DNA from: Gracilimonas mengyeensis
GTDB lineage: Bacteria > Bacteroidota > Rhodothermia > Balneolales > Balneolaceae
DNA length: 64,000 nucleotides
Assembly (NCBI RefSeq): GCF_900182705.1
Contig: NZ_FXTP01000020.1
Span: forward strand, 1-64,000
Direction: 5' to 3'
How positions within the stretch are numbered: the stretch's first letter is position 1; every line of letters starts with the position of its first letter. Positions 48,211 through 64,000 of this stretch are shown one piece after another. Both the position numbers and the translations under genes were made by a program. The notes below the pieces were generated by a model. It searched no databases. It was not told the origin of the DNA and saw only the letters and a list, made by a program, of their open reading frames with translations.

Positions 48211-51200
48211 TTACTCGTGAATCTTGACCACGTAGGTTACGGAACCGGAGGCGCCCGGGGCAAGACTTCCCTGGAAAATCCATTTTATAACTCCCTCTTG
48301 TCCGGAGCCGGGATCTTCAATGGTACAGCCTGTCAAGCTATTTGGGAGGGTATTGCAAGTAGCAGAAGTAAATGAGGTATAGGATGGCGTGTTATCCACT
48401 ATTTCCATGGAGCTAATGGGCTCACTTCCATTATTCGTGTAATCAATGGTGTAGGTCAAGGAGGCGCCCGGCAAAGCCTGTCCTTTGTTTACCTCTTTCA
48501 CAATCACCAGTCCGCCTTCAGTGATGCTCACCCGGACTAAATCCGTTCGCTGCAGTTCTTGCTCAATATCAGGACTCGTATTGTCTAACACGAAGTTCGC
48601 AGTAATAACCGAACTGTTCGAAGCCCCGGTGGATACCCCTTGTGGAACCGTCACTTTCAGCAATAGGCACATGGTTTGATTGGCCGTTACGGCAACTTCC
48701 GTATTTTCGTCCAGTATAGGCTCTCCGCTTTCAACCGAATTATTACAATTAAGATCCCGATACAGTACCACCGGCCAGATTGCATTATCCGGATTGGAAG
48801 TGTTCTCTATTGAGAAAGTCACCTTTCCGGCCGTTCTGGATTCAAAAGTATGCTGGAAGAAGCCTGATGTTCCGGGTTGCAGATTCTTTTCTCCATTAGT
48901 AAGCAAACGGCTCAGCCGTACATTGGCAAACTTCACCCCGGTGTACACTTCTCCCAAAGCATACGTAAAGCTCACTTTGTCTTCGGATAGAGTATACGTC
49001 CCCTGGGTATTGCCGACTTCTCCACCGGTCGTGGTATACTCAGTTCCGCCCTGTTCCAGTATTTCAACAACACTTCCATCGGATATTTCTGAAGCTGAAA
49101 TATATAGCTCAAATGCTCCGCTGCCCTTGCTTTGAACCTCATGTAGTGTAGAGCCACCGGTAGTTGCAGCTTTAACCGTAACTCCTGAAAGCCCGGCTTC
49201 TCCACCATCCTGTTGAGCGTTGTTTGCGGTTCCACCGCTGATGCCGTTATCGTTATAAACGGTTCCTTCTACTTTAGCGCCTCTGAAATCCCCAAAGTTC
49301 ATGGTGTACGGTTGGTTGTTTACCGTAACGGGACGTTTGTTGGGCGTGGTGGAAACATGCTCTTCGGGATCGACAGGCGTAGGTGTACAAACATCCGGTG
49401 TGGGTACACTTTGCCCATAGGCTTCAATCACTTCGTATTCACCATTCAGCACATTGGTAAACTGATACAAACCATCAGAATTGGTGATCACACTCTTACA
49501 GTTATTCAACGCCACATTATAGAGTACCACCGTCACATCCTGTATACCGTTTTCTCCATTTTCGCGAACGCTGTTGTGATTTTCATCCTGATACACATAA
49601 CCGGTAATCGTAACCCCGGTAGGTACAATGCGTTGGTTGGCACTAAACTCAGAAGTGTTATTACTGCCATCGATGGTAATGGCTGTGATGCGGTCGTTGG
49701 TTGCCAGCGTCACAGAATTGGGGATAGTAACCGCTTCATTAAAGGTGCCATCAGAGTTGGTGGTTACACTTCCGATAAATTGCCGTCCCTCGCCATGTGG
49801 TCTGACCAAAGTCCCGTTTTCTTCAATCAATCCCTCATTGTTGCCATCGTTATCGGCTTTGTAGATTTCGATAGTGTAGGTGCCGTTTAGTTTATTGGCA
49901 TTGGTTCCTACAAAACCTTCCACGCGCAAATCAGATCCTTCAACCGTTGCCAGCGTAAACTGCGGATAATCAAGACCGGCATTAGGTTCCACACTGGTTG
50001 ACTGAATATTTCCATCGTTGGAATTCACCCCATCCGCCTGACCTGAACCACTGTAATTGGAAACCACATCCACAGAAAGACCAAAGTTGTTGAGAAAGCT
50101 GTTCTCAGTAATCCGGATGCCCTGAATGGAGCCGCCGTCTGGAAAGCTAAGTTTGATACCCGCACCTAAATTCTGTCCGCCTGAGGAATAATTCGTTCCG
50201 TTATTATTAATTACGTTGGCTTCAATCAAGGAATTTGAAACGCTATGCAGCACACTTATACCCGCAACCGTGTTATGCCGGATGGTGTTATCCCGAATGA
50301 TACTGTTTTGTGATGCACTGCCTGTCTGTCCCAGCTCAATACCACTACCACCGGTAACCGGATCGCTGCTGCTGTTTCCATTTTCGTGAATCAGGTTTTG
50401 CTCAATGGTCCAAGTTCCAATCACCGATAATCCATCGGCCTCTGTATTCTCCTGTGCAGTTTGAAATACCTCGTTTCCAAAGAAAGTCACGCTTGCATTG
50501 GCGTTTTCGGATCTCACCCCATTACCCGTGGTGTAGGCTATAAAGTTTTTCTGAACCAATATAGAAAGTGAAGCAGATCCACTAAAATCAATTCCCTGAC
50601 CTGCCCGTGAGTTTCCACCCGGATTGGTACCATCTGCCCGCAATCCAACAAGGTTATTCTCGATGGTACCGGAAGAGGAATTTTGAACATTGATACCATT
50701 GCTGTTGTTGAACAATGCCAATTCCTTAACAACCACCGCTCCCGATGTATTGATGGTAAAGGCATAGTCGCCCATGTCATTCAGGTTGATCTCCAGCTCT
50801 TTGCGGCTAAAGCTTCCGATGGCACTTTGGGCTGTTCCAACCGCTCCACCAGCCCCCACGGTTCCTCCATTTTCATTGCGAATAACCAAGGGACTGTCTT
50901 TACTGTAAGCAATCCCGCTGATGGTAGTCAGGGGATCCGTTACCGGCGGTAAGGCACTGTTTAAGGTGATGCTCCACCAGTTGGCATTGTTCACCGGTGC
51001 CGCTGGCACAAACCGCATAGTATTAGCCCCACTGATGGCATTAGCATTTTGGATAAACTGTCGCAATCCACCCTGTATCGATCGGCCCGCTGAACCGTCG
51101 TCATCACCATCTCGAGTATTTGTTACTACATTAAAGCTAAATCCAAAATCAATGTCTTCTATTCCCTGATCTGTAACCGTCAGTTTAGCCACATGCTCAG

Positions 51201-54200
51201 CCTGTGCAATATCTGCGCCGGTCGGTGAGGCCGGGATATTATCAGAAACATTGCCCCTGCGACCTCCAAAACAATTCCCTGCTGTAGATGATACCACCGT
51301 GCCGTTATTACCATCTGCACAATAGGCGCCTGCAGGTGCATAGGTCTGCTCCGCCCAGGTACTTCCATTTGTCAATGCGCCAGACCTGGAATCCACTGCC
51401 ACCCAGTAATCCCCACCCTGCCCAATCTGGAAGGTATACTCCCCTTTATTCCCGGTAACTACCGTTTGTTCATATTCGTCATCCGCGCCATCCGGAAGCC
51501 CGTCTCCGCCATCTTTAAACAGATGTACTTTAACATTTTGTAATCCGGTCTGATCACCGGAAGCATCATTGAAAGACAGATCGCCGTCTGCAACACCATT
51601 GCCGGTTTTATCTCTGAATACCGTTCCTTCTGCCTCAATACTAATGCGGACCACCGTCTTGGAGGTATCATTGGCAATGTTGGGATCGAACTGATTGAGT
51701 CCTTTCACATAAGCCATGTTTACCAAAGAATCGGCTTCTACTCCCGAATCAACGGAAGTTCTAAGCGACAAGGTAGCGGAGTTACCTGAATTCAGCGTTC
51801 CAATCGCCCAGGTTTTAGTGAGCTGGTTAAAGGTACCTTGTGTGGGGGTGGCCTGGATCAGGGAAAGCCCGGCGGGCAGTTGCTCACTGATATCCAGTTC
51901 GGTTGCATTCTGCGGACCGTTGTTGGTCACATTTACAGTGAAGTTGATCACCTCATTTTCCAGCGGATTTTCTTCATCCACCGTTTTAGTAACCTGAATA
52001 TCTGCATTCCTGGTATTCACAATAGGATTGTCAAATTCCTGATTCAAACAGCCTCTGAAATCAATATCGACCAGACGTTCACTGTCGTAACCTCCTGTTG
52101 GAATGGATCCGGTGCGCAACTCCAACCTCGAGGTATAGTTAAACGTGATGTATGCCATATGATCGGTATCAAAAGAACCTTGTCCATCTGTAGTGGTGGA
52201 GGAAGCGAAGATAGCGAAAGGCCCTTCGTTGCTAAGCGCTAAGTTTGTTCCAGATTCTATGGTACTGGATTGATTCTGGGAAAAGCCCATGTAATCCCTG
52301 ATCGATTCTCCTCCCGTCTGATAGCCGTCAATATCCAGGCCTGTCATGGAGAAACTTCGTTTTACGGGGATATCTGTTCCGGACTGAACAATCCTGATTT
52401 CCCAATCTATGTATCCGTTGCTGGTACCATTTTGGGTTACAAAAAGCGGACTAAAGTTAGCGGCCTGATCGCCCGCGCTGTTATCATCCAACTCATTCAA
52501 TATGGCATTGTTGATGGCTTTTATCGTTACAAGAGCATCCAGTCCGGAAGCTACATTGGTAAAGCGATAGACGGCATTGACCTGCTCCGGAACGCCCTGT
52601 TCCAGACTATAGGTATCAAAAGAGAAAGTGGGCGGAGCAGTACATGAGAGGTTTGAGTTCGGATCGTTAACAACTATATCGATGGTGGTGGTATTGTTAT
52701 TGGGTACCAAATCCACACCGTCTACTTCCGCAACCGTTGCGGTGTTTGATATGGTCTCGCCCTCTGTACCGGTTTCAACCTCAGCAACAATCTCAAGCGT
52801 AGCAGATTGCAAGCCCTGCAGCGAACCTACTGTCCATTCCCCATTGCTGCTGTTATAGCTACCCTGGCTTGGGGTAGCCGATTTAAACGTCAAATCACTG
52901 GAAAGTACATCTTCTATAACAATGCCGGTGGCAGGTGTAGTTTTAGTGTTTGCGAGGTTGATGGTATAGGTGATGTCCTGCCCCACATCCGGCGTCACGT
53001 CATCCACCTCTTTGGTAACCCCAACATCAACTACGCTTTCCGTGTTTGGATCGTCAAAATCATTGATTTTACAGGGATCGAAACTCACTGAAATAACGCG
53101 ATCGTCCGTGGTACCGTCAGATTTAATACCAGCCCGCAGGTTGAATACCGCCTCGTTCGTGTAAGTGGCATACACCATGTAGTCGGTGTAATTGCTGTAG
53201 GTAGGTTGGGTATCCTGGAAGTTATTCGATTCAAATGTGACGAATGCATTCGCGTAGTCGTTTATCAGGTTCGTTGCTTCCTCTACCGTAAACGAGCTCA
53301 GGTTTTGAAACCCAATCAAATCCTTCAGGCTTCCGGTACCATCAATGTCAGAACCGGTAGCAGCAAAGGACATATAGCGCGGCAGGTTTGTACTATTATC
53401 AAAAAAGGAAATCTTGAAATCTACGTATCCGTCATCACCTCCAATGTTTTCAATGGATGGTGAGAACTCTTCAGGCAGCTGACTCAGGTTGGCATCATCT
53501 ACATTCAACAGTTGAGCATTATTAATCGTAATCACTTCCACTTTGGCATATACCCCGTTCATCACGTTGTTAAACCGATAAACAGCCCCTATCTGGTTGT
53601 TGGAACCACTGATCAAGTTGCCATTTTCGAAAGTAAGCAAAGGCCGGTCGTTACAGGAATTGGGAGCCCCGGGAATCAATACGTCCACCACTGCAGTAGA
53701 GGTGTTATTGTCTGCATTATTATCATTTTGATCGAGCGTGTTTATAGATGCCGTATTAGAAATGCTATTGCCCTGCGTTTCATCATCTACCGTTACGTTA
53801 ATCGCCAGCGAGGCAGAAGCGCCATTTGCAAGTGCCCCGATAGTCCAAATGCCGGTAGACTGATTGTAACTTCCCAGCGTAGCGGTAGCACTTTGGAAAG
53901 TCAGCCCTGAAGGCAACTGGTCAATCAGGCTTAAATTGGTGGCATCCTTTGGCCCGTTGTTCGTCACATAAATGGTATAGGTGATGTATTCGCCTTCCAG
54001 CGGCACGGCATTATCTACCACTTTTTGCACATTGATATCCGCTGTTTCGGGGATGACGGTAATCCCTGTAGTCGCCGTATTGTTGGTCAAATCCGGATCA
54101 CTCTGATCCACAGAAGAAATAGAGGCCTCGTTTTCGATGGTAGATCCCACCGTGCCGCTATTAACCGTGGCCATCAGTTCCAGGGAAACCGTGTCTTCCG

Positions 54201-57200
54201 GTGCCAGGGTTCCTACATTCCAAATACCTGTTCCGCTGTTATAACTGCCCTGTTCTGCATTGGCCGATGTGAAAGTGATGCCTGACGGCAGCTGATCGGT
54301 TACCTGTACACCTGTTGCGCTGAATTCATCCGAGCTGTTGCCCACTTGCAGGGTAAAAGTGATGGTTTCCCCTTCAATAGGCTGCGTATTATTTACCGAC
54401 TTCAACATGACCAAATCCGGCGTAGGTGGCGGGGTGATGGTAACCATATAATCTTCTACCTCACCATCTGAAGCACTTCCGGTAGGATTGGCTACTTCGG
54501 CTGCATTTGTAGCGATACGGAAACGGGCATGCGTAGTACCTGTAACTAAACCTGACAATCCAGTCCAGTTCAACGTTACGCTTCCTGCAGAACAGGTCCC
54601 GGAATCATACTCACCGGCATCAAAAGAACCAGACTGATTGAAATCTACCCAGCCGCCAACCGCTCCGCCACCGGAACAGACCAAGGTGACATCATAGCTG
54701 GGTTGGGCCGTATGCAGTTCCGGCATAGACGAAATCGCATCTTCATCATCACCGGCTCCCAGTCCTGAACTTTCGGTATCATCCCCGGATGATGTTCCAT
54801 TTGGTCTTCCATTTCCATCGGGATCTACATTTCCGCCAAAAAATACCTGGTCGTTCCCATCATTATTCAAAAGGTGGAAAGCTGGAGGCTGTGTTCTGGA
54901 GCTATACTGTGTGGTGTAGGTTGAAGGGGCATCCCCAAAATCAGCCCGAACACCCAGTCCTACATAAATATTATCATTGGCAGTATGCACTTTTCGAAGC
55001 TCAATCCGGTCCATATCGGGATTGCCGATTTTTATCCAGAGCGGAGTGGAGGAAATACTACAGGAAGCATTGCCGGAAACCGTGGGCTGAAATTCCAGTG
55101 TGGTGTTTCCGTTGGTGTATACCAAATTTACGTTGTTGGTACAAAGTCCGCCATCCGTGCCTTGCCCTGTTTGCCAGCCATTTAAAGAAACTTTAGAGCC
55201 CGAATTATCAAAAGCTTCCAGTGTGTAGGAGGTATTTCCACCGTTGGGAGCCAGCCGGTTGAGTGAGAGCAAAATGGCATCTGAAGGCACGCCTGAAGGA
55301 ATATCAATATCGATGGATGTCGTATTACCGGTAGCTCCGCTGGGGTTTAACTGTGGGCCGTTAAACTCATCCCCGGCATACGCTCCTGAAGCCCAGGATT
55401 GCAAAGCGTTGGGAGCAAAGGTGGTGTTGCTTCCGGCCGCAGCGTCCACCGTAGCAATTTCCAATCCCCCTACAAAAGCAGACATAGAAGTTCCGCCAAA
55501 CACTCCGTTAAAACAGGCCCAGGCCACATCCTGTCCGTTGGTGATGGGACACGGATCCGGCCCAAAAGCGGAGTTATTAAAGGTATTATTCGTTACCGGC
55601 TGATTGCTGAAACCTGAGGCATTATTACCGATTTCATCCTGTACAGGATTTGTGCCGGTACTATAATCCACTTCCACAATATCACCACTCACAACAGGCT
55701 GTGAAAGACTTAAGTTAATGCGAGCCCCGATGATAGCTACATTAGTAACCGTTCTCGTATTTCCATTAACCCGAATGGTAAAGTCACCTGAGGCAGGAAT
55801 GGAAGCGGGACTCAGATTCTCATTGTAATCAAGCTGCAGGGTTGAACCGTTTATACTGGCCACATTCAAAACCGGTCCGCTGGCATCTGCAGTTGCTGAA
55901 GCTTCGGCCGACTCCGGACTTTCATTCCCGGATCCATCAATAGCGGTCACCACGTAGTAATAGGTGCCACCGTCGGTGAGGCCGGTATTGGTATAGCTAT
56001 ATCTCGCACTTTCATCATCCCCTACAGTGGCAACCTGCGTATAGGGTCCGCCGGCATTTGAGGCTCGTTGTATTGAATAAGTAGTAACACCCCCCTCGCT
56101 GTCCACATCATCAAAGTTAATCTCAATATCGCCGCCCGCAAGAGCAGTAGCTGTGACGTTAACCGGAGCCCCTGGAATAGTACTGGTATTATTGGTTACG
56201 GTCTGGTTTGTGAGATTCCCTGCATTATTCCCTGCCACATCCTGAATTGGGTTACCTCCTGCCGTATAGCTGACCTCCACATCATCTCCCACTTCGGCCT
56301 CAGGATTGATGGTAAGGTTTACTTTATCCCCACTTATTGAAACGTTCGTAATCGTAACCTCACTGGAATTCACATTTACAGTAAAACTGCTTGCAGAGGG
56401 CACCGAACCGCCATCAAGGCTTTCGTTATAATCAAGCTGCAGGTTGGACCTGTTGACAGTAACCGCCTCAAGTGTTGGGGGTGATTGGTCGGCCGTAGCA
56501 GACACCTCGGCAGATGGCACACTTGTATTGCCTGATCCATCCACGGCTACAACTACATAATAATAGGTTAATCCGTCGGTTACGCCATTATCGGGGAAGA
56601 GGTAAGAGGAACTTTCATCATCGGTAATTGTGGCTACCTCACTGTAAGGCCCGCCCTGCGAGGTTCCGCGACGAATGGAATACAAACTAACTCCGCTGCC
56701 GGTCTCATCCACATCATCAAAAGAAAGTCGAATATCGCCCCCGGCTACTGCCTCGGCTGAAACGTTTTGGGGGGCAGGTGGAGGATTCCCATCCACGGGC
56801 TGCTGATTGCTAACAGTATAGAAAGAAGATGGATTATTTTGGTTATTGAACTCTGTAGCTATCCAGCCTGACGAGAAGGTGGAACTTGCCAACCTAAACT
56901 CGTCGAACTTTGCATCTATGTAATCATCCGCACCGTAATTTGACCTTCCAAAATAGTTTGAGTTTGAATTCTCAATACTATTTGGTGTCAGGGTAACATT
57001 ATTTGCAGTTCCATACAGAGAGCCATTCCGATATACAATCAATGTATTTGCTCCATCATCAAGTACAATAGCCCAATGCACCCATTGACCGATATCAAGA
57101 GTTGAATTGGAAATAATAGCTCCCTGTTCTCCTGAATTTCCATTTCCAGTAATACGCACCCGGGTTTCGGACGGTGAATTCGTACCTACCGAAGGGGTAA

Positions 57201-57912
57201 AGAAAAAGTTAATGTTGGTATTACGGCCAAAATCGAACACCCGTTCCCAGTTGGTATTTGCACGGTCTAATTGTACCCAACCTGAAAAGGTAAAATCCCC
57301 CACGCCGGAAAAAATTCTATTTGGCACCTCCAAATGTTGGCCTGAATTACTGTTTGAAGCTACATTTGATGAATTGTTTAAGTTTCTAGCAGACCCAATT
57401 TTACCATTTCCCAAATTTGAGGTAGACCGGTTCGTTAAATTATTATTGCTGCCGCTCGCATCGCTTACATTATTTTCAAAGTGATAGATCCCAAAATAGT
57501 TACTGTTCCATATAGCATTTGTGGAAGGATTCGTAGTAACCGCCCCATTCCCATAGAACATATAAATATCGGTGTCGGTATTTCCACTCAGGGAAGGAAT
57601 CTGCACCCAGGCAATCAACTCGCCGGTCGATGAATTATAACTTTCTATTTCATGACTGAGGATGGTATTACCGTTTACATCCGCTGCAAAAAGAATATCA
57701 TAGCCGTTTGAACTTTGCACATTATCCCGCAGATCGGTATCTGTGATGCTGATGAGTACCGGAAAATTACTGTGGCTTCCCTGCACCTGCGAAGCTTGTA
57801 TGGATACCTGCTTGTAATACTGATATCCTGCTGGCTGAGCCTGCGCCATGGTTGCAAAAAGCGCCATCACCATTAACAATAACAGACGATATGTAGTGCT
57901 AAACCGGTTCAT
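48211..57912 (-). CDS. Giant exported multidomain surface protein (3233 residues)
   Basis: A 3233-residue secreted protein, probably a cell-surface fibre or adhesin. In order (approximate residues): signal peptide 1-26; DUF2341 ~43-120; LamG/concanavalin-like ~140-345; two FN3 domains (~385-485 and ~595-690), each followed by a SwmB-like Ig domain; a ~200-residue region with FGPDPCPITNGQ; GEVED ~1020-1190; DUF11 repeats alternating with a duplicated ~200-residue Cys-bounded module (~1450-1650 and ~1780-1980); an SdrD-like domain with RDKTGNGVADGD; a right-handed beta-helix opening GGLRQFIQNANAI (~2230-2560); a further SdrD-like domain (GYVYQDENHNSVRENG); and a C-terminal DUF11-like domain. 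There is no LPXTG, and I see no clear type IX sorting domain. The ATG shares a base with the stop of the OmpA-family gene (TAATG). Confidence 0.85.
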   Translation of the reverse strand: MNRFSTTYRLLLLMVMALFATMAQAQPAGYQYYKQVSIQASQVQGSHSNFPVLISITDTDLRDNVQSSNGYDILFAADVNGNTILSHEIESYNSSTGELIAWVQIPSLSGNTDTDIYMFYGNGAVTTNPSTNAIWNSNYFGIYHFENNVSDASGSNNNLTNRSTSNLGNGKIGSARNLNNSSNVASNSNSGQHLEVPNRIFSGVGDFTFSGWVQLDRANTNWERVFDFGRNTNINFFFTPSVGTNSPSETRVRITGNGNSGEQGAIISNSTLDIGQWVHWAIVLDDGANTLIVYRNGSLYGTANNVTLTPNSIENSNSNYFGRSNYGADDYIDAKFDEFRLASSTFSSGWIATEFNNQNNPSSFYTVSNQQPVDGNPPPAPQNVSAEAVAGGDIRLSFDDVDETGSGVSLYSIRRGTSQGGPYSEVATITDDESSSYLFPDNGVTDGLTYYYVVVAVDGSGNTSVPSAEVSATADQSPPTLEAVTVNRSNLQLDYNESLDGGSVPSASSFTVNVNSSEVTITNVSISGDKVNLTINPEAEVGDDVEVSYTAGGNPIQDVAGNNAGNLTNQTVTNNTSTIPGAPVNVTATALAGGDIEINFDDVDSEGGVTTYSIQRASNAGGPYTQVATVGDDESARYSYTNTGLTDGGTYYYVVTAIDGSGNESPESAEASATADASGPVLNVASINGSTLQLDYNENLSPASIPASGDFTIRVNGNTRTVTNVAIIGARINLSLSQPVVSGDIVEVDYSTGTNPVQDEIGNNASGFSNQPVTNNTFNNSAFGPDPCPITNGQDVAWACFNGVFGGTSMSAFVGGLEIATVDAAAGSNTTFAPNALQSWASGAYAGDEFNGPQLNPSGATGNTTSIDIDIPSGVPSDAILLSLNRLAPNGGNTSYTLEAFDNSGSKVSLNGWQTGQGTDGGLCTNNVNLVYTNGNTTLEFQPTVSGNASCSISSTPLWIKIGNPDMDRIELRKVHTANDNIYVGLGVRADFGDAPSTYTTQYSSRTQPPAFHLLNNDGNDQVFFGGNVDPDGNGRPNGTSSGDDTESSGLGAGDDEDAISSMPELHTAQPSYDVTLVCSGGGAVGGWVDFNQSGSFDAGEYDSGTCSAGSVTLNWTGLSGLVTGTTHARFRIATNAAEVANPTGSASDGEVEDYMVTITPPPTPDLVMLKSVNNTQPIEGETITFTLQVGNSSDEFSATGVQVTDQLPSGITFTSANAEQGSYNSGTGIWNVGTLAPEDTVSLELMATVNSGTVGSTIENEASISSVDQSDPDLTNNTATTGITVIPETADINVQKVVDNAVPLEGEYITYTIYVTNNGPKDATNLSLIDQLPSGLTFQSATATLGSYNQSTGIWTIGALANGASASLAINVTVDDETQGNSISNTASINTLDQNDNNADNNTSTAVVDVLIPGAPNSCNDRPLLTFENGNLISGSNNQIGAVYRFNNVMNGVYAKVEVITINNAQLLNVDDANLSQLPEEFSPSIENIGGDDGYVDFKISFFDNSTNLPRYMSFAATGSDIDGTGSLKDLIGFQNLSSFTVEEATNLINDYANAFVTFESNNFQDTQPTYSNYTDYMVYATYTNEAVFNLRAGIKSDGTTDDRVISVSFDPCKINDFDDPNTESVVDVGVTKEVDDVTPDVGQDITYTINLANTKTTPATGIVIEDVLSSDLTFKSATPSQGSYNSSNGEWTVGSLQGLQSATLEIVAEVETGTEGETISNTATVAEVDGVDLVPNNNTTTIDIVVNDPNSNLSCTAPPTFSFDTYSLEQGVPEQVNAVYRFTNVASGLDALVTIKAINNAILNELDDNSAGDQAANFSPLFVTQNGTSNGYIDWEIRIVQSGTDIPVKRSFSMTGLDIDGYQTGGESIRDYMGFSQNQSSTIESGTNLALSNEGPFAIFASSTTTDGQGSFDTDHMAYITFNYTSRLELRTGSIPTGGYDSERLVDIDFRGCLNQEFDNPIVNTRNADIQVTKTVDEENPLENEVINFTVNVTNNGPQNATELDISEQLPAGLSLIQATPTQGTFNQLTKTWAIGTLNSGNSATLSLRTSVDSGVEADSLVNMAYVKGLNQFDPNIANDTSKTVVRISIEAEGTVFRDKTGNGVADGDLSFNDASGDQTGLQNVKVHLFKDGGDGLPDGADDEYEQTVVTGNKGEYTFQIGQGGDYWVAVDSRSGALTNGSTWAEQTYAPAGAYCADGNNGTVVSSTAGNCFGGRRGNVSDNIPASPTGADIAQAEHVAKLTVTDQGIEDIDFGFSFNVVTNTRDGDDDGSAGRSIQGGLRQFIQNANAISGANTMRFVPAAPVNNANWWSITLNSALPPVTDPLTTISGIAYSKDSPLVIRNENGGTVGAGGAVGTAQSAIGSFSRKELEINLNDMGDYAFTINTSGAVVVKELALFNNSNGINVQNSSSGTIENNLVGLRADGTNPGGNSRAGQGIDFSGSASLSILVQKNFIAYTTGNGVRSENANASVTFFGNEVFQTAQENTEADGLSVIGTWTIEQNLIHENGNSSSDPVTGGSGIELGQTGSASQNSIIRDNTIRHNTVAGISVLHSVSNSLIEANVINNNGTNYSSGGQNLGAGIKLSFPDGGSIQGIRITENSFLNNFGLSVDVVSNYSGSGQADGVNSNDGNIQSTSVEPNAGLDYPQFTLATVEGSDLRVEGFVGTNANKLNGTYTIEIYKADNDGNNEGLIEENGTLVRPHGEGRQFIGSVTTNSDGTFNEAVTIPNSVTLATNDRITAITIDGSNNTSEFSANQRIVPTGVTITGYVYQDENHNSVRENGENGIQDVTVVLYNVALNNCKSVITNSDGLYQFTNVLNGEYEVIEAYGQSVPTPDVCTPTPVDPEEHVSTTPNKRPVTVNNQPYTMNFGDFRGAKVEGTVYNDNGISGGTANNAQQDGGEAGLSGVTVKAATTGGSTLHEVQSKGSGAFELYISASEISDGSVVEILEQGGTEYTTTGGEVGNTQGTYTLSEDKVSFTYALGEVYTGVKFANVRLSRLLTNGEKNLQPGTSGFFQHTFESRTAGKVTFSIENTSNPDNAIWPVVLYRDLNCNNSVESGEPILDENTEVAVTANQTMCLLLKVTVPQGVSTGASNSSVITANFVLDNTSPDIEQELQRTDLVRVSITEGGLVIVKEVNKGQALPGASLTYTIDYTNNGSEPISSMEIVDNTPSYTSFTSATCNTLPNSLTGCTIEDPGSGQEGVIKWIFQGSLAPGASGSVTYVVKIHE

Positions 57913-60900
57913 TATTTACTGTCCTCCCCGTTCTTGAAAGCACCATCCAGGTCAACAAGTCGAATATGTTGCATATCCGGGTAAACAAATTGTAGCTGAT
58001 CGACAGGCACATCATCCGAACCATTGGTGTAGGTTCTGCCACTTTCAATGCCCCAATCTGTCAGGAATGTTTGAATGGCTTCGGCGCGAAGTTCTCCTTT
58101 TTCAAGACTGCTGTTGTATTGAATTTGAAGCTTAGCCTTTGGATACTTTTTCATGAATGAGCCAATGCGCGCCAGTACAGCTTTTTGCTCCGGACTCAGT
58201 GTCATCGCCGTAGCGTCAAAATCCATATTCATCGGAAGCGCGTTATTCCGGTCGAAGCCTTCCGTTAGCCGTTCGTCTTTTCTTGATTGCAGAACCTCCA
58301 GTAAGTTGTTCATCATAGCCAGAACGCGGCTATTTTTTTCAAACCGGATATCATCCTGCTGTGCATACACTTCCACGCGCTCAAGATCGCTAAAGCTAAA
58401 GACAGCGGCTGAATCATTTTCACTTTCTGTAACTGCCAGACGATCTTCCTCCACTCCTTCCCTGATCAAATACTCAGCAATGCGGGAAGCGAAAATCGTA
58501 TCCGCAGAAGCAATCTCCATTTCTAAACCTGCATGATCCTCAAGTACCATAGCTATTCGATTTGCCATGTATTCCTGAACCCCATTCAATTCTGGAGAGG
58601 TGATATTGAATGCGGCCGGCACCTGATTATGCCCTGCCATAAATACATAGTCCCAAGTATCCACACCGCGCACCACCGGGTGTACTTGAAGATCCTCTAC
58701 CTGGTCAACCAGTCTTGCACGGAACGGTTCAGGATTGATAGCTAGCTCTACACGGCGGTTTACAGCCATATCCACCTGATCTTTTTCCTGGCGGATTTCC
58801 TGGCTGTAGCTTAGCCCTTCAAACCGGAGTTTATCACCGCTAATACCGGAAGCGATAAGGTAAGAGCGCACTGCCCTCGCTCTTCTTTCGGAGAGATCAA
58901 GGTTATAATCGTAAGAGCTTTTTGAATCGGTATGCCCTGTTATGCGAATCGTATAATCTCCCTCGGATTGAAGGAAAGTAGCCACCATATCAAGCATTTG
59001 TGCGGAACGGGCGGTTATGTAGGTGCTGTCGTTATTAAAGTGAATTTGCTTCGGTAAAAAGTACAGCTGCTCAATTCTCTTGTAATTTGATTCCACCTCA
59101 GCAATGCTCAAACGATAGGGATCAAGTGCCGGGATATGGAACGGCAGAATAGTGAGCTTAGGCCCACACTCTTCTTTACAAATCAGGTAACGGGATTCAT
59201 CCAGAATGTTTTTGCTGCGCTCGGGCGCTAGGCTGCGGAATATTTGCTCGTCAAACTTGTAGCTGAGTCCGGCATACACACCCCGCTGTGTATAATTGTT
59301 TTCTGAGAGATCTTCATCTTCATATCCAAACAAATTGAAACCGGCTGCAAGACGCAGATTTTTAGCCACCAGATAACCGGCTTCAATTCCAACTCCGTAA
59401 TCTTTAATGGTAAAATCACTGTTAGCCAGCAGGCTCGCATTTATGGAAGCGTCCCATCGATCGGTGATGTCGTACATGGTTCGCCCGGAAAGTAACTCCA
59501 GGAAACTGGATGATTTCAAAAACTCATCCTGCTCTACCGATCTTTTGGCAGCCAGCCGGCCCGTGAAGGTCCAGTCTACTACCGGATGATAATTGGCATG
59601 AGAAGAAAATACATGGGCCGACCGGAAATGGTTAGGGGCTATATTTGCGTCTTCCTCATATTTAAATTCATATCGAAACAGGGCATCCAGTTTGTTGCTG
59701 TCAACATCGCGGAAGGCCGTACCTACGCGCAGACGCTGCTGAATTTTGCTAAACCCGGAAACGCCGTCAGTGGCGGTAAGTGCAATGATATTCTTGCCCA
59801 GGAACGTCCAGTCGCGGTTTATTTTGTGTCCGTACCCGAAGCTGTTTAAATAGGTGGTGGATTGTTTTCTGAAACGCGCTTCCAGTTTCGCTGTTCCTTT
59901 CCAGTTGGGGTTGGCCGTATAATCGATAGCTGTTGAAAGCGCTGTTCCATCGTTTGTCGGAGTCCCCTCAACGGTGTAAATACGCTCAAACCCAACATTC
60001 AGTCCCAAGCCTTCTTTAAGCTCAAACTGGTTTCGCACCCCAATGGCAGCCTGACCGGTTCGCCCGTCCAGCGCATCTGCCATTCGGTATTCGCTGTAAA
60101 TCTGGCCGTTGTTCATGTAGTTCACATCCAAACCAACCAGCGTGTTATTTCTTTTTGCACTGCTGCTTAAGGTGTAGCGCCCGCCTGCACTGGAAATGAA
60201 CTCATGCTTGGCATACAGCTTGGCAATATTTCTAAGGCGATAGTCACCGCCAACCGCAATCATTTTCCGGTCGGTATTAGTCATGTCCTGCTCATATTCC
60301 CCATAGGTGGATGCCCCTTCTATAAAAGGAAGATCAGCCGTGATTTTACCTCTTGCGTTGGTGTTCACGATTTCCTCAGATGCAGCTCTGGATTCCTGCG
60401 TATGCCGGATCCCCACTTCGGCATTAATGCTGCTGCCAAGGCTTCGCTGCACATTCAGCACTCCACCCACAACTTCAGCCCCGCTGGTATCATTGCGAGA
60501 ATAAAGGAATTCACCATTAATGTTGGTAGAACCTTCGAAACGGTACCGCCCACGCACCTTAGCTTCGGTGCGTCCCTGCCCAAGGGTGGCCCGTTCATTA
60601 TCGAAGTTCTTCTCTGCTTTACCGACCTGTGCCAAAAGATCTACTTTTTTGCCTCTTTTTTGAAGCTCAATACGTCCGGCATTTCCGTTGCCATTTCTGG
60701 CAGTGTTGGTACGCGCTACCTCAACCAACATCCGGGTATCCTCATTCAGCTCTACGCTCAGGTTACCTGAAGTCAAAGCAAATTCTTCTTCCGGATTGTT
60801 GTCTTTCACATAGCTGGCGCCAGCCACTACTCCATCAACCACTCTAAGTTTTCCATCTACCCCACCGATGAAATAGCGTTCGTCGTCATTTTCTACTTCG

Positions 60901-63900
60901 TAAGTAATGCGAATAAACTGTGGGTTAAATTCTTTATCAACGCTGGAAACCGGTGCCCGGAAAGTGATGGCGCCGTTAAAGGGCTCAATGGCATAATCCC
61001 GGAAACGAGTCAGCCGCTCAACATCGAGGATGACCTCGGGCTGATTTCTGTCATAAGTGACAATTTCTACAATCTCACTGTTTTCAATGATATCCTGGTC
61101 CGGAAGTTCGTAACGGGAAATTCCCTGTCCCCGGAATTCACGAAGGCGATGGGTTGATGCTGAACTCACCCCAAAAGCATTCACTTCGTAATTATCCTGC
61201 TCATAATGTGTTTTGATACCGGTTTGTGAACGGCTGTAATCACCCAACTGTCGATCCTGATCTCGTTCCTGCGTGATGAAATCACCGTACATGGCATAAG
61301 TTTTATTGCGATCTACCCGAATGTAAAGGCGGCTTGAGGACTGTGCATCAAAACCCTTAACCGAAGATTCACCGTAGACCGGGTAAAATTCATCCGGGCG
61401 GATATCACGAAACATTCTGTTTTCTTTGTCTTTCTCAGAATCAAAACCAGCGGTAAGCAAGGTTTTTCCACTCACTTTACCTTTAAGGAAGAAGGAAATT
61501 CTGCCATCGGCCGTAAAGTTGTTCATGTCGTATGACAGCGACTTAAGCTCTCTTTCAAAGCCATCATCAGAAGAAGCAGAACGGATATCCAGAGGATTGC
61601 GCAGACGAACGGTTCCCTCGATAATACCGGCGGCAATTAAAGGTCTCAAATCCGGAATGAAATGTACTTTAGCTTCCCCTTCAAGTACCCCGGCATTGGC
61701 GCGTACCAATACAGTTTTTGGTTCTATTGTTGATTTGAGTTTAAAATCTGTCACCCCGCCCACTACCGAAGTTTGTGTACCTGGTGTTTTGGGTTGATTG
61801 TCTTCTACCTGCCACTCCCCCAAAGAGGCATCCAGGGTAATATCAATTTTTGAACCGATTCTGATTCCTTCCTGATCCAAAACTTCAACCCGCACTACCG
61901 CTGCCGATACACCATCAGCGGATACATGATTTTCAGGCACGGTCACTTTTAGTTTCTTCAATTCACCCGGTGCATAAACGGATACTTCAACCGAATCTCT
62001 GAGGTTTCCGAAAGGATCACGCTCCCTAAGCTGAACCGTATTCTTCCCCTTGTTCAATTCAATACTTACAAATTCCCAAGCCTGCAGGTCCCTGTTTTTG
62101 GCTGCTGATCGCTGACCGATCTTGTCATTTTCGATGATTTCACCATTTACTTTCATCTCAAAGCGGGCGCCCAGCTTTCCTTTTGCCTGAAAAGTAAACT
62201 GCCGGGCATCCAGGGTATCTCCATCCGCCACATTTAAAAAGCCCAAATCAGCACTCGCATTCAAAAGCCCCATTTCCATATTATCCAAAGCCACCACGGT
62301 AGAGTCTTCCGTAATGATACTGGTTGAATCAGGGGAAGCAGTCTTCGCATCAGCAGCTTCCTTGGCAGATTGAATTTTAGGAACCTTAGCGTCGCCCACA
62401 ACGCCGGCTGCCTGTCTGTTGTTGGAAGTTCTTTGTTCTCTCAGGTTGAAATTTTTGGATACATCGTTTAGTACTTCATTGCGTCCTGCTCCGAAAGCTT
62501 CTTTTCGGGTATCAATATTGTTGAGAACTCCTTCGGTACAGTTACACACTGCAAAGTCAGCCCGGTGCATTTCCCCTTTCTTCAAATCCACAAAACGGCT
62601 GGACGGATCATTGGCATGGCGGTTGTCCACGGCCTCCAATTCACTGCCGTCGGGTAAGGAGTAGTTATCAATTTTAAGCACGTGTTTGTTTGGCTTCACC
62701 CCATAGAAGGTATATTTACCGTCCGCATCGGTAATGATGTAATTACCATTCTCGAGATACAATCTTACGCCCGGCACACCAGTTTCATTGGCATCCTGCA
62801 TGCCATCACGGTCACAATCCAGGAATACATTACCAATGATGAGTCCTTCATCACTAAACACACCGCCGGTAACTTCTACCTTAACCTGCGCCTGGTTACT
62901 AACTTTTACGATGGCTTCATCACTTCTTGCTATGGCCACGTTGATACCATTACCTCGTTCTGAGCCCGCACCGATATGCACCTTGTAGATCAACTCCATA
63001 GAAGAGCCCGGATTAATGTCTCCTATTTCAAATTTTAGCTCAGGACCTTTTCCTCCTTCAGGATCTTCTATACTTTCCCCATCCAGCTGGGCCGTTCCTT
63101 TTTCGTATTCAAATCCAAAAGGCAGGTTATCGGTTAAAGTTAGATTATTGACCGTATTTACGGCTTCACTTCGAATGTTGATGGTGTAATACAGGAAATC
63201 ACCGATCTCTGCTTCTTTTTTATTCACCGTTTTTTCCACAAAAAGTACACCGGTGCTTTTTGGATCTACCGGGATATCCACATCTATACCTTTTGGATCC
63301 CCTGTCAGCGAAAATGATTTGCCGTAGGAAGCCAAGCTATCCAGTGAACGGTCTGATGGTAACTGATCGATGCTAAGTTCTGATACAAATGTATACCCCT
63401 CAGGTGGAGCCACTTCTATGCGATATTCTCCGGCTAAAAGATATGGGAACCGGTATTCGCCGCTTTCATTGGTGGTTTGGATATTATCTAAAATTTCTTC
63501 TCCCTGTACATCCCGCACCTGGGCAAGTCCGCCTGCATTTCCACCATTTGTCACCCCATTCACATCAATAATTCGAACTTCTGCGCCTGACACCGGTTCA
63601 TTGGTTTCACTGTCAAAAATAACGCCGTAAGGATCTACCTGTACCATGGCATTGATCACTGCGGAACCACCTTGCCCTGATTGGTTCAAGCCATCACAGG
63701 TAAGTACCGCTTCAAGCTCATCTTTCTCCACCGTTTCCAGTATTTCATTACCTAATACAACGGCAAATTGCGTTGCATCCCGGGTTGGCACTTCCTGATC
63801 AATTCTGAACATTCCGGTATTTGGACCGGTTTCAGTGGCGGTAAATTCCTCGAAATCGCCTGTCATCTTTGATTCAATGGTGATGATCGCCCGTTCAATG

Positions 63901-64000
63901 GTTCCCCTAAGCGTATTACAGGCTGAAGCATTAGCTTGCAAATGCAGGGGCTGCCCGATCGTTGACGTACCCGTGGTTCGATCGAAGTTACTATCGGTAA
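57912..64000 (-). CDS. Giant OmpA-family outer-membrane protein with DUF11, SdrD-like and Ig-like domains (5' end outside window)
   Basis: At least 2028 residues; the frame stays open to the window edge, so the start is not visible. In order from the edge: a prealbumin/carboxypeptidase-like fold (~130-200, EYRFPYLLAGEYRIEV), DUF11 (~225-345, VEKTVNKKEAEIGDFLYYTI), an SdrD-like domain (~365-440, GNVFLDCDRDGMQDANETG), an Ig-like region (~640-800), a long stretch of alternating beta strands likely to form an outer-membrane barrel (~830-1640), then an OmpA/Pal domain with TGHTDSKSSYDYNLDLSERR. Two further degenerate OmpA-like modules follow. It sits directly upstream of, and overlaps, the 3233-residue surface protein gene. 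A peptidoglycan-anchored barrel that displays or secretes the partner is a reasonable guess. Confidence 0.85.
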   Translation of the reverse strand, partial: TDSNFDRTTGTSTIGQPLHLQANASACNTLRGTIERAIITIESKMTGDFEEFTATETGPNTGMFRIDQEVPTRDATQFAVVLGNEILETVEKDELEAVLTCDGLNQSGQGGSAVINAMVQVDPYGVIFDSETNEPVSGAEVRIIDVNGVTNGGNAGGLAQVRDVQGEEILDNIQTTNESGEYRFPYLLAGEYRIEVAPPEGYTFVSELSIDQLPSDRSLDSLASYGKSFSLTGDPKGIDVDIPVDPKSTGVLFVEKTVNKKEAEIGDFLYYTINIRSEAVNTVNNLTLTDNLPFGFEYEKGTAQLDGESIEDPEGGKGPELKFEIGDINPGSSMELIYKVHIGAGSERGNGINVAIARSDEAIVKVSNQAQVKVEVTGGVFSDEGLIIGNVFLDCDRDGMQDANETGVPGVRLYLENGNYIITDADGKYTFYGVKPNKHVLKIDNYSLPDGSELEAVDNRHANDPSSRFVDLKKGEMHRADFAVCNCTEGVLNNIDTRKEAFGAGRNEVLNDVSKNFNLREQRTSNNRQAAGVVGDAKVPKIQSAKEAADAKTASPDSTSIITEDSTVVALDNMEMGLLNASADLGFLNVADGDTLDARQFTFQAKGKLGARFEMKVNGEIIENDKIGQRSAAKNRDLQAWEFVSIELNKGKNTVQLRERDPFGNLRDSVEVSVYAPGELKKLKVTVPENHVSADGVSAAVVRVEVLDQEGIRIGSKIDITLDASLGEWQVEDNQPKTPGTQTSVVGGVTDFKLKSTIEPKTVLVRANAGVLEGEAKVHFIPDLRPLIAAGIIEGTVRLRNPLDIRSASSDDGFERELKSLSYDMNNFTADGRISFFLKGKVSGKTLLTAGFDSEKDKENRMFRDIRPDEFYPVYGESSVKGFDAQSSSRLYIRVDRNKTYAMYGDFITQERDQDRQLGDYSRSQTGIKTHYEQDNYEVNAFGVSSASTHRLREFRGQGISRYELPDQDIIENSEIVEIVTYDRNQPEVILDVERLTRFRDYAIEPFNGAITFRAPVSSVDKEFNPQFIRITYEVENDDERYFIGGVDGKLRVVDGVVAGASYVKDNNPEEEFALTSGNLSVELNEDTRMLVEVARTNTARNGNGNAGRIELQKRGKKVDLLAQVGKAEKNFDNERATLGQGRTEAKVRGRYRFEGSTNINGEFLYSRNDTSGAEVVGGVLNVQRSLGSSINAEVGIRHTQESRAASEEIVNTNARGKITADLPFIEGASTYGEYEQDMTNTDRKMIAVGGDYRLRNIAKLYAKHEFISSAGGRYTLSSSAKRNNTLVGLDVNYMNNGQIYSEYRMADALDGRTGQAAIGVRNQFELKEGLGLNVGFERIYTVEGTPTNDGTALSTAIDYTANPNWKGTAKLEARFRKQSTTYLNSFGYGHKINRDWTFLGKNIIALTATDGVSGFSKIQQRLRVGTAFRDVDSNKLDALFRYEFKYEEDANIAPNHFRSAHVFSSHANYHPVVDWTFTGRLAAKRSVEQDEFLKSSSFLELLSGRTMYDITDRWDASINASLLANSDFTIKDYGVGIEAGYLVAKNLRLAAGFNLFGYEDEDLSENNYTQRGVYAGLSYKFDEQIFRSLAPERSKNILDESRYLICKEECGPKLTILPFHIPALDPYRLSIAEVESNYKRIEQLYFLPKQIHFNNDSTYITARSAQMLDMVATFLQSEGDYTIRITGHTDSKSSYDYNLDLSERRARAVRSYLIASGISGDKLRFEGLSYSQEIRQEKDQVDMAVNRRVELAINPEPFRARLVDQVEDLQVHPVVRGVDTWDYVFMAGHNQVPAAFNITSPELNGVQEYMANRIAMVLEDHAGLEMEIASADTIFASRIAEYLIREGVEEDRLAVTESENDSAAVFSFSDLERVEVYAQQDDIRFEKNSRVLAMMNNLLEVLQSRKDERLTEGFDRNNALPMNMDFDATAMTLSPEQKAVLARIGSFMKKYPKAKLQIQYNSSLEKGELRAEAIQTFLTDWGIESGRTYTNGSDDVPVDQLQFVYPDMQHIRLVDLDGAFKNGEDSK

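Follow-up and report, generated by a model that had tools for sequence, protein, structure and literature searches.

The genes of the locus

The window analysed here, i.e. the whole stretch of 64,000 nucleotides, corresponds to positions 1-64,000 of contig NZ_FXTP01000020.1 (C20) from the 4.67 Mb genome of Gracilimonas mengyeensis, the close relatives of which are Balneolaceae. Our subject is a unit of genes for exported proteins at its right-hand end. There, an earlier note had singled out two giant overlapping genes and proposed that they encode a dedicated outer-membrane platform and its ligand-binding or adhesive partner. Both genes, which we call BAR (the barrel protein) and FIB (the fibre protein), are real, and the TAATG overlap that joins them is present as announced, at 57910-57914, the ATG of FIB being one base inside the stop codon of the upstream BAR gene. 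FIB, as defined by its open reading frame (ORF) and translation, spans 48211-57912 (-) and has the expected length of 3233 amino acids (aa). BAR had been read too short, with 2009 aa and a start at 63941: its gene crosses the window end and extends as far as contig position 65066, and the full product has 2384 aa, including a signal peptide. Nor is the system limited to two genes. Two further exported DUF11-type genes, for proteins of 900 aa (p900) and 160 aa (p160), lie directly upstream of BAR on the same strand and belong to the unit, the gene order of which is p160-p900-BAR-FIB; we refer to it below as the cassette.

The Pfam matches account for most of the modules that had been recognized by eye. 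Those of FIB are laminin-G (LamG), SWM repeats, FN3, GEVED, DUF11 and SdrD-B, which bears out the LamG, FN3, GEVED, DUF11 and SdrD-like modules expected there; its beta-helix part gave no Pfam match. Those of BAR are CarboxypepD_reg/SdrD-B, DUF11, a weak Big_1 and OmpA, in keeping with the expected DUF11, SdrD-like, Ig-like and OmpA modules. The OmpA domain is not at the extreme C-terminus: it occupies residues 2010-2104 of 2384 and has a degenerate OmpA-like stretch behind it. Matches to the DUF11 family (PF01345), also named CLIPPER, were significant for FIB (E 7e-118), p900 (E 3e-21) and BAR (E 7e-14); p160 stayed under the curated cut-off. Neither NCBIfam nor Pfam recognized a sorting or anchor family in FIB. 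The features within the window, all on the reverse strand, are as follows (AF2, AlphaFold2; pLDDT, predicted local distance difference test).

57912..64000 (-): BAR gene, in-window part (residues ~357-2384 of 2384); ORF and translation
63384..63626 (-): BAR stalk, CarboxypepD_reg / prealbumin-like domain (residues 481-561); Pfam
62916..63242 (-): BAR stalk, DUF11 (CLIPPER) domain (residues 609-717); Pfam, and an isopeptide-fimbrial NCBIfam match
62664..62834 (-): BAR stalk, SdrD B-like domain (residues 745-801); Pfam
61632..62279 (-): BAR, Ig-like domain pair before the barrel (Big_1 / intimin D00-D0-like); AF2 pLDDT ~90, structure matches, weak Big_1
59202..61619 (-): BAR, predicted giant outer-membrane barrel; AF2 model from 66 aligned sequences, C-terminal module shared by relatives in six phyla
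58755..59039 (-): BAR, OmpA domain, putative peptidoglycan anchor (residues 2010-2104); Pfam E 2e-22
57915..58754 (-): BAR, C-terminal tail with the second, degenerate OmpA-like stretch; E 0.002
48211..57912 (-): FIB gene, 3233-aa exported fibre; ORF, Pfam
49618..57834 (-): FIB variable part with DUF2341, LamG, SWM, FN3, GEVED, DUF11, DUF7619 and other modules; Pfam, relatives
53677..54057 (-): internal CLIPPER domain of FIB, matched in full (positions 1-114 of 114), an example contrasting with the terminal one; Pfam
48214..49617 (-): FIB conserved C-terminal module (residues 2766-3233); placement by hidden Markov model (HMM)
48214..48510 (-): FIB terminal truncated CLIPPER domain, the putative acceptor (Pfam DUF11 positions 2-84 of 114); Pfam
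48496-48498 (-): Lys3139 of the FIB acceptor; kept
48394-48396 (-): Asp3173 of the FIB acceptor; kept

Conservation and distribution of the cassette

Conservation was assessed on 58 genomes (the host and its relatives). A full BAR was present in nine others of them, and all nine (9/9) keep the p160-p900-BAR-FIB order of the host; the p160 of G008 was detected at E 3e-21. Because nine relatives of the same taxonomic order keep all four genes in order, chance is excluded as the source of the unit. BAR and FIB are therefore adjacent in 10/10 genomes of the order with a full BAR, and not mostly apart, which agrees with the idea of a dedicated pair. Co-occurrence supports it too: in a sample of 198 genomes across the phylum, the barrel, p160 and the FIB end are found together, without exception, in the same 14, and neither p160 nor the FIB end occurs without the barrel in any of the 198. 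Two more genomes of this sample, G141 (contig C44) and G165 (contig C10), have a diverged BAR and, on the same contig as the barrel, a FIB-end-like match, with no p160; these loci are possibly a sister system.

When the barrel alignment was scanned against 84,980 species genomes, 310 relatives were obtained. The best 80 of these 310 belong to Balneolota, Pseudomonadota, Verrucomicrobiota, Nitrospirota, Desulfuromonadales/Deltaproteobacteria and Gemmatimonadota, many of them being metagenome bins. Locus counts were made on the 66 top loci with at least 4.6 kb of DNA before BAR. In 63 of the 66, p160 and p900 are directly upstream of BAR, the gap between p900 and BAR having a median of 92 bases. 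A FIB with its conserved end could be identified in 42 loci; in a further 20, a giant ORF continues beyond the DNA that was retrieved. The OmpA domain (PF00691) is fused to BAR in Balneolota (E 2e-22 in the host protein); in most non-Balneolota loci, which come from many phyla, an OmpA gene of its own, ~390 aa in length, immediately follows BAR. The cassette, probably a surface-fibre kit, has four or five genes and is present in at least six bacterial phyla.

Its distribution is patchy even within the genus. This patchiness, and the fact that a mobilizable Acinetobacter plasmid carries it, suggest that the cassette moves horizontally or is often lost. Its neighbours on that plasmid, from Acinetobacter haemolyticus (locus L118, CP085288.1 182954-213434), include arsenic genes and a transposase. 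In the annotation, the p900 region is divided into four short ORFs, and the cassette may be broken at this point.

Two other observations concern the layout and surroundings of the genes. A diverged two-gene form, in which an 810-aa DUF11 protein accompanies a 1439-aa barrel protein and the other parts are absent, exists within the same family (L037, G022:C11:122000-141500). At L005 (12692-17226), the divergent neighbours upstream of the operon resemble a BatA/BatD/DUF58 (VWA) set, which stays beside the cassette in most Balneolaceae relatives.

Truncated CLIPPER domains and their missing strands

Among relatives, FIB varies in length (from 1001 to 3334 aa) and in module content. Its last ~470 residues are one module, which HMM placement puts at the extreme C-terminus across phyla. 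The final ~230 residues of this module recur twice in p900, near its start (profile-profile E 2e-22) and at its end (2e-27); p160 consists of the final domain alone, in one copy. The length of p900 is kept within narrow limits (10th-90th percentile, 881-973 aa).

The C-terminal domains of the three proteins are all cut short at nearly the same point. On the 114 positions of the Pfam DUF11 profile, their matches end at 84 (FIB), 86 (p900) and 84 (p160), and those of domains inside these proteins continue to 114. What is missing from the truncated ends is the strand pair that bears the isopeptide Asn. The isopeptide chemistry of CLIPPER domains is established, the triad being Lys715-Asp748-Asn806 in structure 9IFR (PMC12617251), and the terminal domains of FIB, p900 and p160 do not have the complete cis Lys-Asp-Asn fold. 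Lys and Asp are nevertheless kept in 62/64 p900 ends and in 42/42 true FIB ends, without an Asn of their own; p160 has no Asp at the catalytic place. FIB had been described as a fibre without visible anchor. This is not supported: its truncated C-terminal CLIPPER domain resembles a docking site into which a neighbouring subunit would insert an N-terminal strand.

Mature p900 and mature BAR both begin with the missing strand pair, Asn included. Across the collected loci it follows the motif P.AGT.I.NQA.ATY.D......SNTV.T.V, with the Asn present in 61/62 intact p900 starts and in nearly all BAR starts (judged by inspection, the automated count having overlooked two). An HMM of the complete internal domain (153 positions) separates the two kinds of pieces: the p900 C-terminus and p160 match positions 15-118, and the N-termini of p900 and BAR match its tail (medians 98-148 and 118-142, respectively). 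In a sliding-window scan against a profile of that tail, the BAR N-terminal windows ranked first of 386 (22.4, for a 95th percentile of 10.3), level with a complete internal CLIPPER domain of BAR; the p900 N-terminal windows came next, after the tail of p900's own internal domain. Pfam gave no DUF11 match on the isolated N-terminal strands, pieces this short being below the reach of that search.

Two loci without p160 and p900 also have no donor start on BAR. One is verrucomicrobial (L078, 7955-12409); a joint loss of donor and p900 would leave just this pattern. In the other (L060, 888-12643), a 2726-aa CLIPPER/SdrD/CshA array is fused N-terminally to the BAR stalk, the barrel being a separate overlapping gene; the same bin also has a canonical cassette (L062). 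Taken as a Rosetta-stone test, the order of this fusion agrees with the chain proposed below, but the array is not clearly FIB and the case is consistent with the chain only.

Structure prediction of the probable joint

In a close relative (L038), p900 and BAR are in frame and 21 bases apart. Reading through the stops gave a single chain made of the acceptor, a linker that includes the BAR signal peptide, and the donor, which was modelled by AF2 with a 59-row alignment. The prediction places the BAR N-terminus in the last domain of p900, with a pLDDT of 93-98 for the acceptor, 89-94 for the donor and mostly 53-77 for the linker, and a predicted template modelling score (pTM) of 0.75. Compared with the whole CLIPPER domain of crystal structure 9IFR, the model covers 122/123 residues at 2.1 Å (Z 12.9) through its residues 6-209. 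The acceptor, residues 6-119, amounts to only 114 residues and, therefore, the donor must fill the last strands. By fold, the modelled joint comes closest to the CnaA domains found in sortase-type pilins, BcpA among them (3rkp, Z 15.2). In sequence searches of the PDB, the split-domain alignment A3 and a FIB CLIPPER domain gave chance matches only; the internal p900 domain found 9IFR (E 0.17), its Lys and Asp being aligned with those of the structure. A split-domain joint thus appears well supported by sequence and by one structure prediction.

The barrel protein

The earlier note had called for a structure prediction of the barrel. With the 66-sequence alignment, AF2 did predict one, at a pLDDT of 83 and a pTM of 0.68; in the model the Ig-like pair is followed by several strands, a plug-like insert, and then ~32 long strands. 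The model indicates a real barrel, which fold comparison brings close to several kinds of barrel protein. In the VIA fold comparison, the ushers FimD and PapC came on top (Z 14.9-15.8, model 219-760); TonB receptors, porins and SlpA followed closely, at a distance of about 1-3 Z. The Foldseek matches include SlpA, LptD and SprA; SprA is absent from the VIA table, an absence that proves nothing. In profile searches the barrel matched neither the Usher family (PF00577), up to E 5, nor the SprA family (TIGR04189 or Pfam SprA); a weak Usher match, under the cut-off, was seen only elsewhere in the host genome. Assignment of BAR to SprA or to the ushers was accordingly rejected at the level of family, where there is no profile match, and is only suggestive at the level of fold.

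These comparisons bear on the first alternative to be considered, namely that BAR mainly serves to secrete p900 and FIB, as a dedicated channel comparable in size to an usher or to SprA. The donor-acceptor match would then be needed only for transient targeting, and the fibre would be released or otherwise held. The top rank of the ushers, the plug-like insert inside the barrel sequence and the appearance of SprA among the Foldseek matches speak for it. The closeness of the other barrels in Z, the lack of an Usher or SprA family match in BAR and the joint retention of Lys, Asp and Asn, which favours a permanent bond, speak against it, and we regard it as unlikely.

The host also has its own full SprA of the type IX secretion system (T9SS), on another contig (L119, G000:C1:304056-311078), so that T9SS and cassette coexist. 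FIB was considered as a T9SS cargo, and this was rejected since NCBIfam and Pfam revealed no C-terminal sorting domain in it. Moreover, T9SS is not known in some of the groups in which relatives of the cassette occur, which also counts against such a cargo.

A proposed model for the assembly of the fibre

We consider it probable that the cassette encodes an outer-membrane fibre in which FIB, p900 and BAR are joined head to tail by split CLIPPER domains, probably sealed by intermolecular isopeptide bonds. This reading draws on gene order, co-occurrence, truncation, the donor motif and the conservation of Lys, Asp and Asn, all taken from sequence, and on the predicted barrel and the one predicted joint; from these we infer the covalent bond, the order and number of subunits, the pairing of donors with acceptors, the export route, the role of p160 and the adhesive function. 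FIB would have an acceptor only, at its C-terminus, BAR a donor only, at its N-terminus, and p900 would have both. By donor-strand complementation, the N-terminal strand of one subunit would complete the C-terminal domain of its neighbour, giving a chain FIB-p900-(p900)n-BAR, read from N to C. FIB would form the tip, with its variable adhesive modules, p900 an adaptor or a repeating shaft, and BAR the base, which would anchor the chain, through its barrel and OmpA domain, to outer membrane and peptidoglycan. Since the Lys and Asp of the acceptor and the Asn of the donor make up the CLIPPER triad, each joint would probably seal itself covalently, without a sortase. p160, which is a single truncated domain devoid of the catalytic Asp, probably serves as a placeholder that forms no covalent bond: either a chaperone, which would keep donor strands until the fibre is assembled, or a cap for them. 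The LamG, FN3 and GEVED modules of FIB suggest a role in adhesion.

One could object that these are ordinary DUF11 adhesin genes beside the gene of an OmpA-barrel protein, that each product is exported and anchored alone, and that the N-terminal resemblance reflects shared ancestry and no joint. DUF11 proteins are indeed common and of modular build, and adhesin stalks routinely consist of DUF11 repeats (PMC12617251). It is however hard to see in this way why three separate proteins end at the same profile position, why the missing strand is found at exactly two N-termini, why Lys and Asp persist across phyla without a cis Asn, and why the sample shows no exception to the co-occurrence of the gene sets; we hold this explanation to be unlikely. 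It is very improbable that p900, which is alone in having a donor at its start as well as an acceptor at its end, the length of which is tightly kept and in which the FIB C-terminal module is found twice, forms a shaft or surface layer by itself (FIB and BAR being a minor cap and base) or closes its own C-terminus with its N-terminal strand: the triad residues are best kept at the FIB C-terminus, where Lys and Asp are invariant, yet FIB has no donor start and must for that reason receive its strand from another protein.

Several points weigh against the head-to-tail fibre. The fibre and its bond are predicted from genes and models. The AF2 result concerns one donor-acceptor pair from one close relative, was obtained without a negative control, and had the BAR signal peptide in the linker of the modelled chain. 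The usher-like match of the barrel is tied with other barrels. For some loci, no FIB could be identified in the DNA that was retrieved. The p900 N-terminus could pair with the C-terminus of FIB, with that of p900 or with p160, and the data fit each. Finally, coupled loss of the triad is weakly documented: at L110, Lys and Asp of the p900 C-terminus and Asn of the BAR N-terminus are lost together, and at L073, L112 and L113 the loss affects one side only. Assigning pairs in this way was given up, one coupled case among four loci with losses being not significant and no more than an anecdote.

If FIB, p900 and BAR are welded as proposed, Gram-negative bacteria of several phyla build covalent, sortase-free fibres from self-welding parts, with a barrel as base, and the retention on the cell of many giant DUF11 proteins without anchor signal finds an explanation. 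A widely seen and unexplained gene family would become a testable system, and a natural split isopeptide pair would be on offer. The platform-and-partner idea from which the analysis started was right in outline but too small.

Comparison with known systems

The deposited annotation of these genes is only 'DUF11 domain-containing protein', 'NEW3 domain-containing protein' and 'OmpA family protein', and in the open-licence literature we found no description of the cassette, or of such fibre-building in Gram-negative bacteria, an absence that is no proof. Tentatively, we propose that the cassette could represent a separate class of Gram-negative fibre, present in at least six phyla, in which a giant passenger would arrive as several polypeptides and be welded on the cell by naturally split isopeptide domains, with the barrel as covalent base and p160 guarding the donor strands.

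The closest relatives by domain are the fibrillar adhesins with CLIPPER (DUF11) stalks, e.g. B9T28_05395 of Acinetobacter silvestris (PDB 9IFR; PMC12617251). They share with the cassette the domain family, the Lys-Asp-Asn triad, an OmpA-like anchoring and the Gram-negative surface. In these adhesins, however, a single polypeptide comprises stalk and anchor, and each domain forms its isopeptide internally, whereas here three to five genes are involved and the end domains have no Asn strand of their own.

The chaperone-usher pili (FimD/FimC/FimA type) resemble the arrangement proposed here by their logic, in that an N-terminal extension completes an incomplete Ig-like domain, the base is an outer-membrane barrel and the tip an adhesin. 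They differ from the cassette, for which no Usher family match and no pili-chaperone family were seen and in which the subunits are giant and multi-domain, the acceptor lacks its last strands, the predicted joint has an isopeptide triad and the barrel protein is itself a donor-bearing subunit. As for the classical autotransporters (type Va, with an N-terminal passenger and a C-terminal barrel of ~12 strands), the stalk-then-barrel order is common to both, but the predicted barrel of BAR is far larger.

Donor-strand complementation combined with an intermolecular isopeptide bond, and with no known sortase, has been described for the Sulfolobus threads (Saci_0406; PMC9715654). Here both are predicted from residues and fit only. 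The threads are archaeal filaments of a single subunit, without barrel, in which Asn57 is bound to the N-terminal alpha-amino group of a molecule two subunits away (PMC9715654). The sortase-built pili of Gram-positive bacteria (BcpA, SpaD, RrgB) have CnaA-type pilin domains, the closest folds to the modelled joint, and a covalent tip-shaft-base logic; there, a sortase makes the intermolecular bonds at a C-terminal motif and the domain isopeptides are intramolecular. The split tag/catcher pairs derived from Cna domains by SpyTag-type engineering (for CnaB-based pairs, PMC5487036) consist of a strand with one reactive residue and a body with the other. Those pairs are engineered, whereas the split appears here to be natural and conserved across phyla. 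To conclude, CLIPPER stalks, chaperone-usher pili, archaeal threads and sortase pili each match a part of the cassette, and none of them has this gene set.

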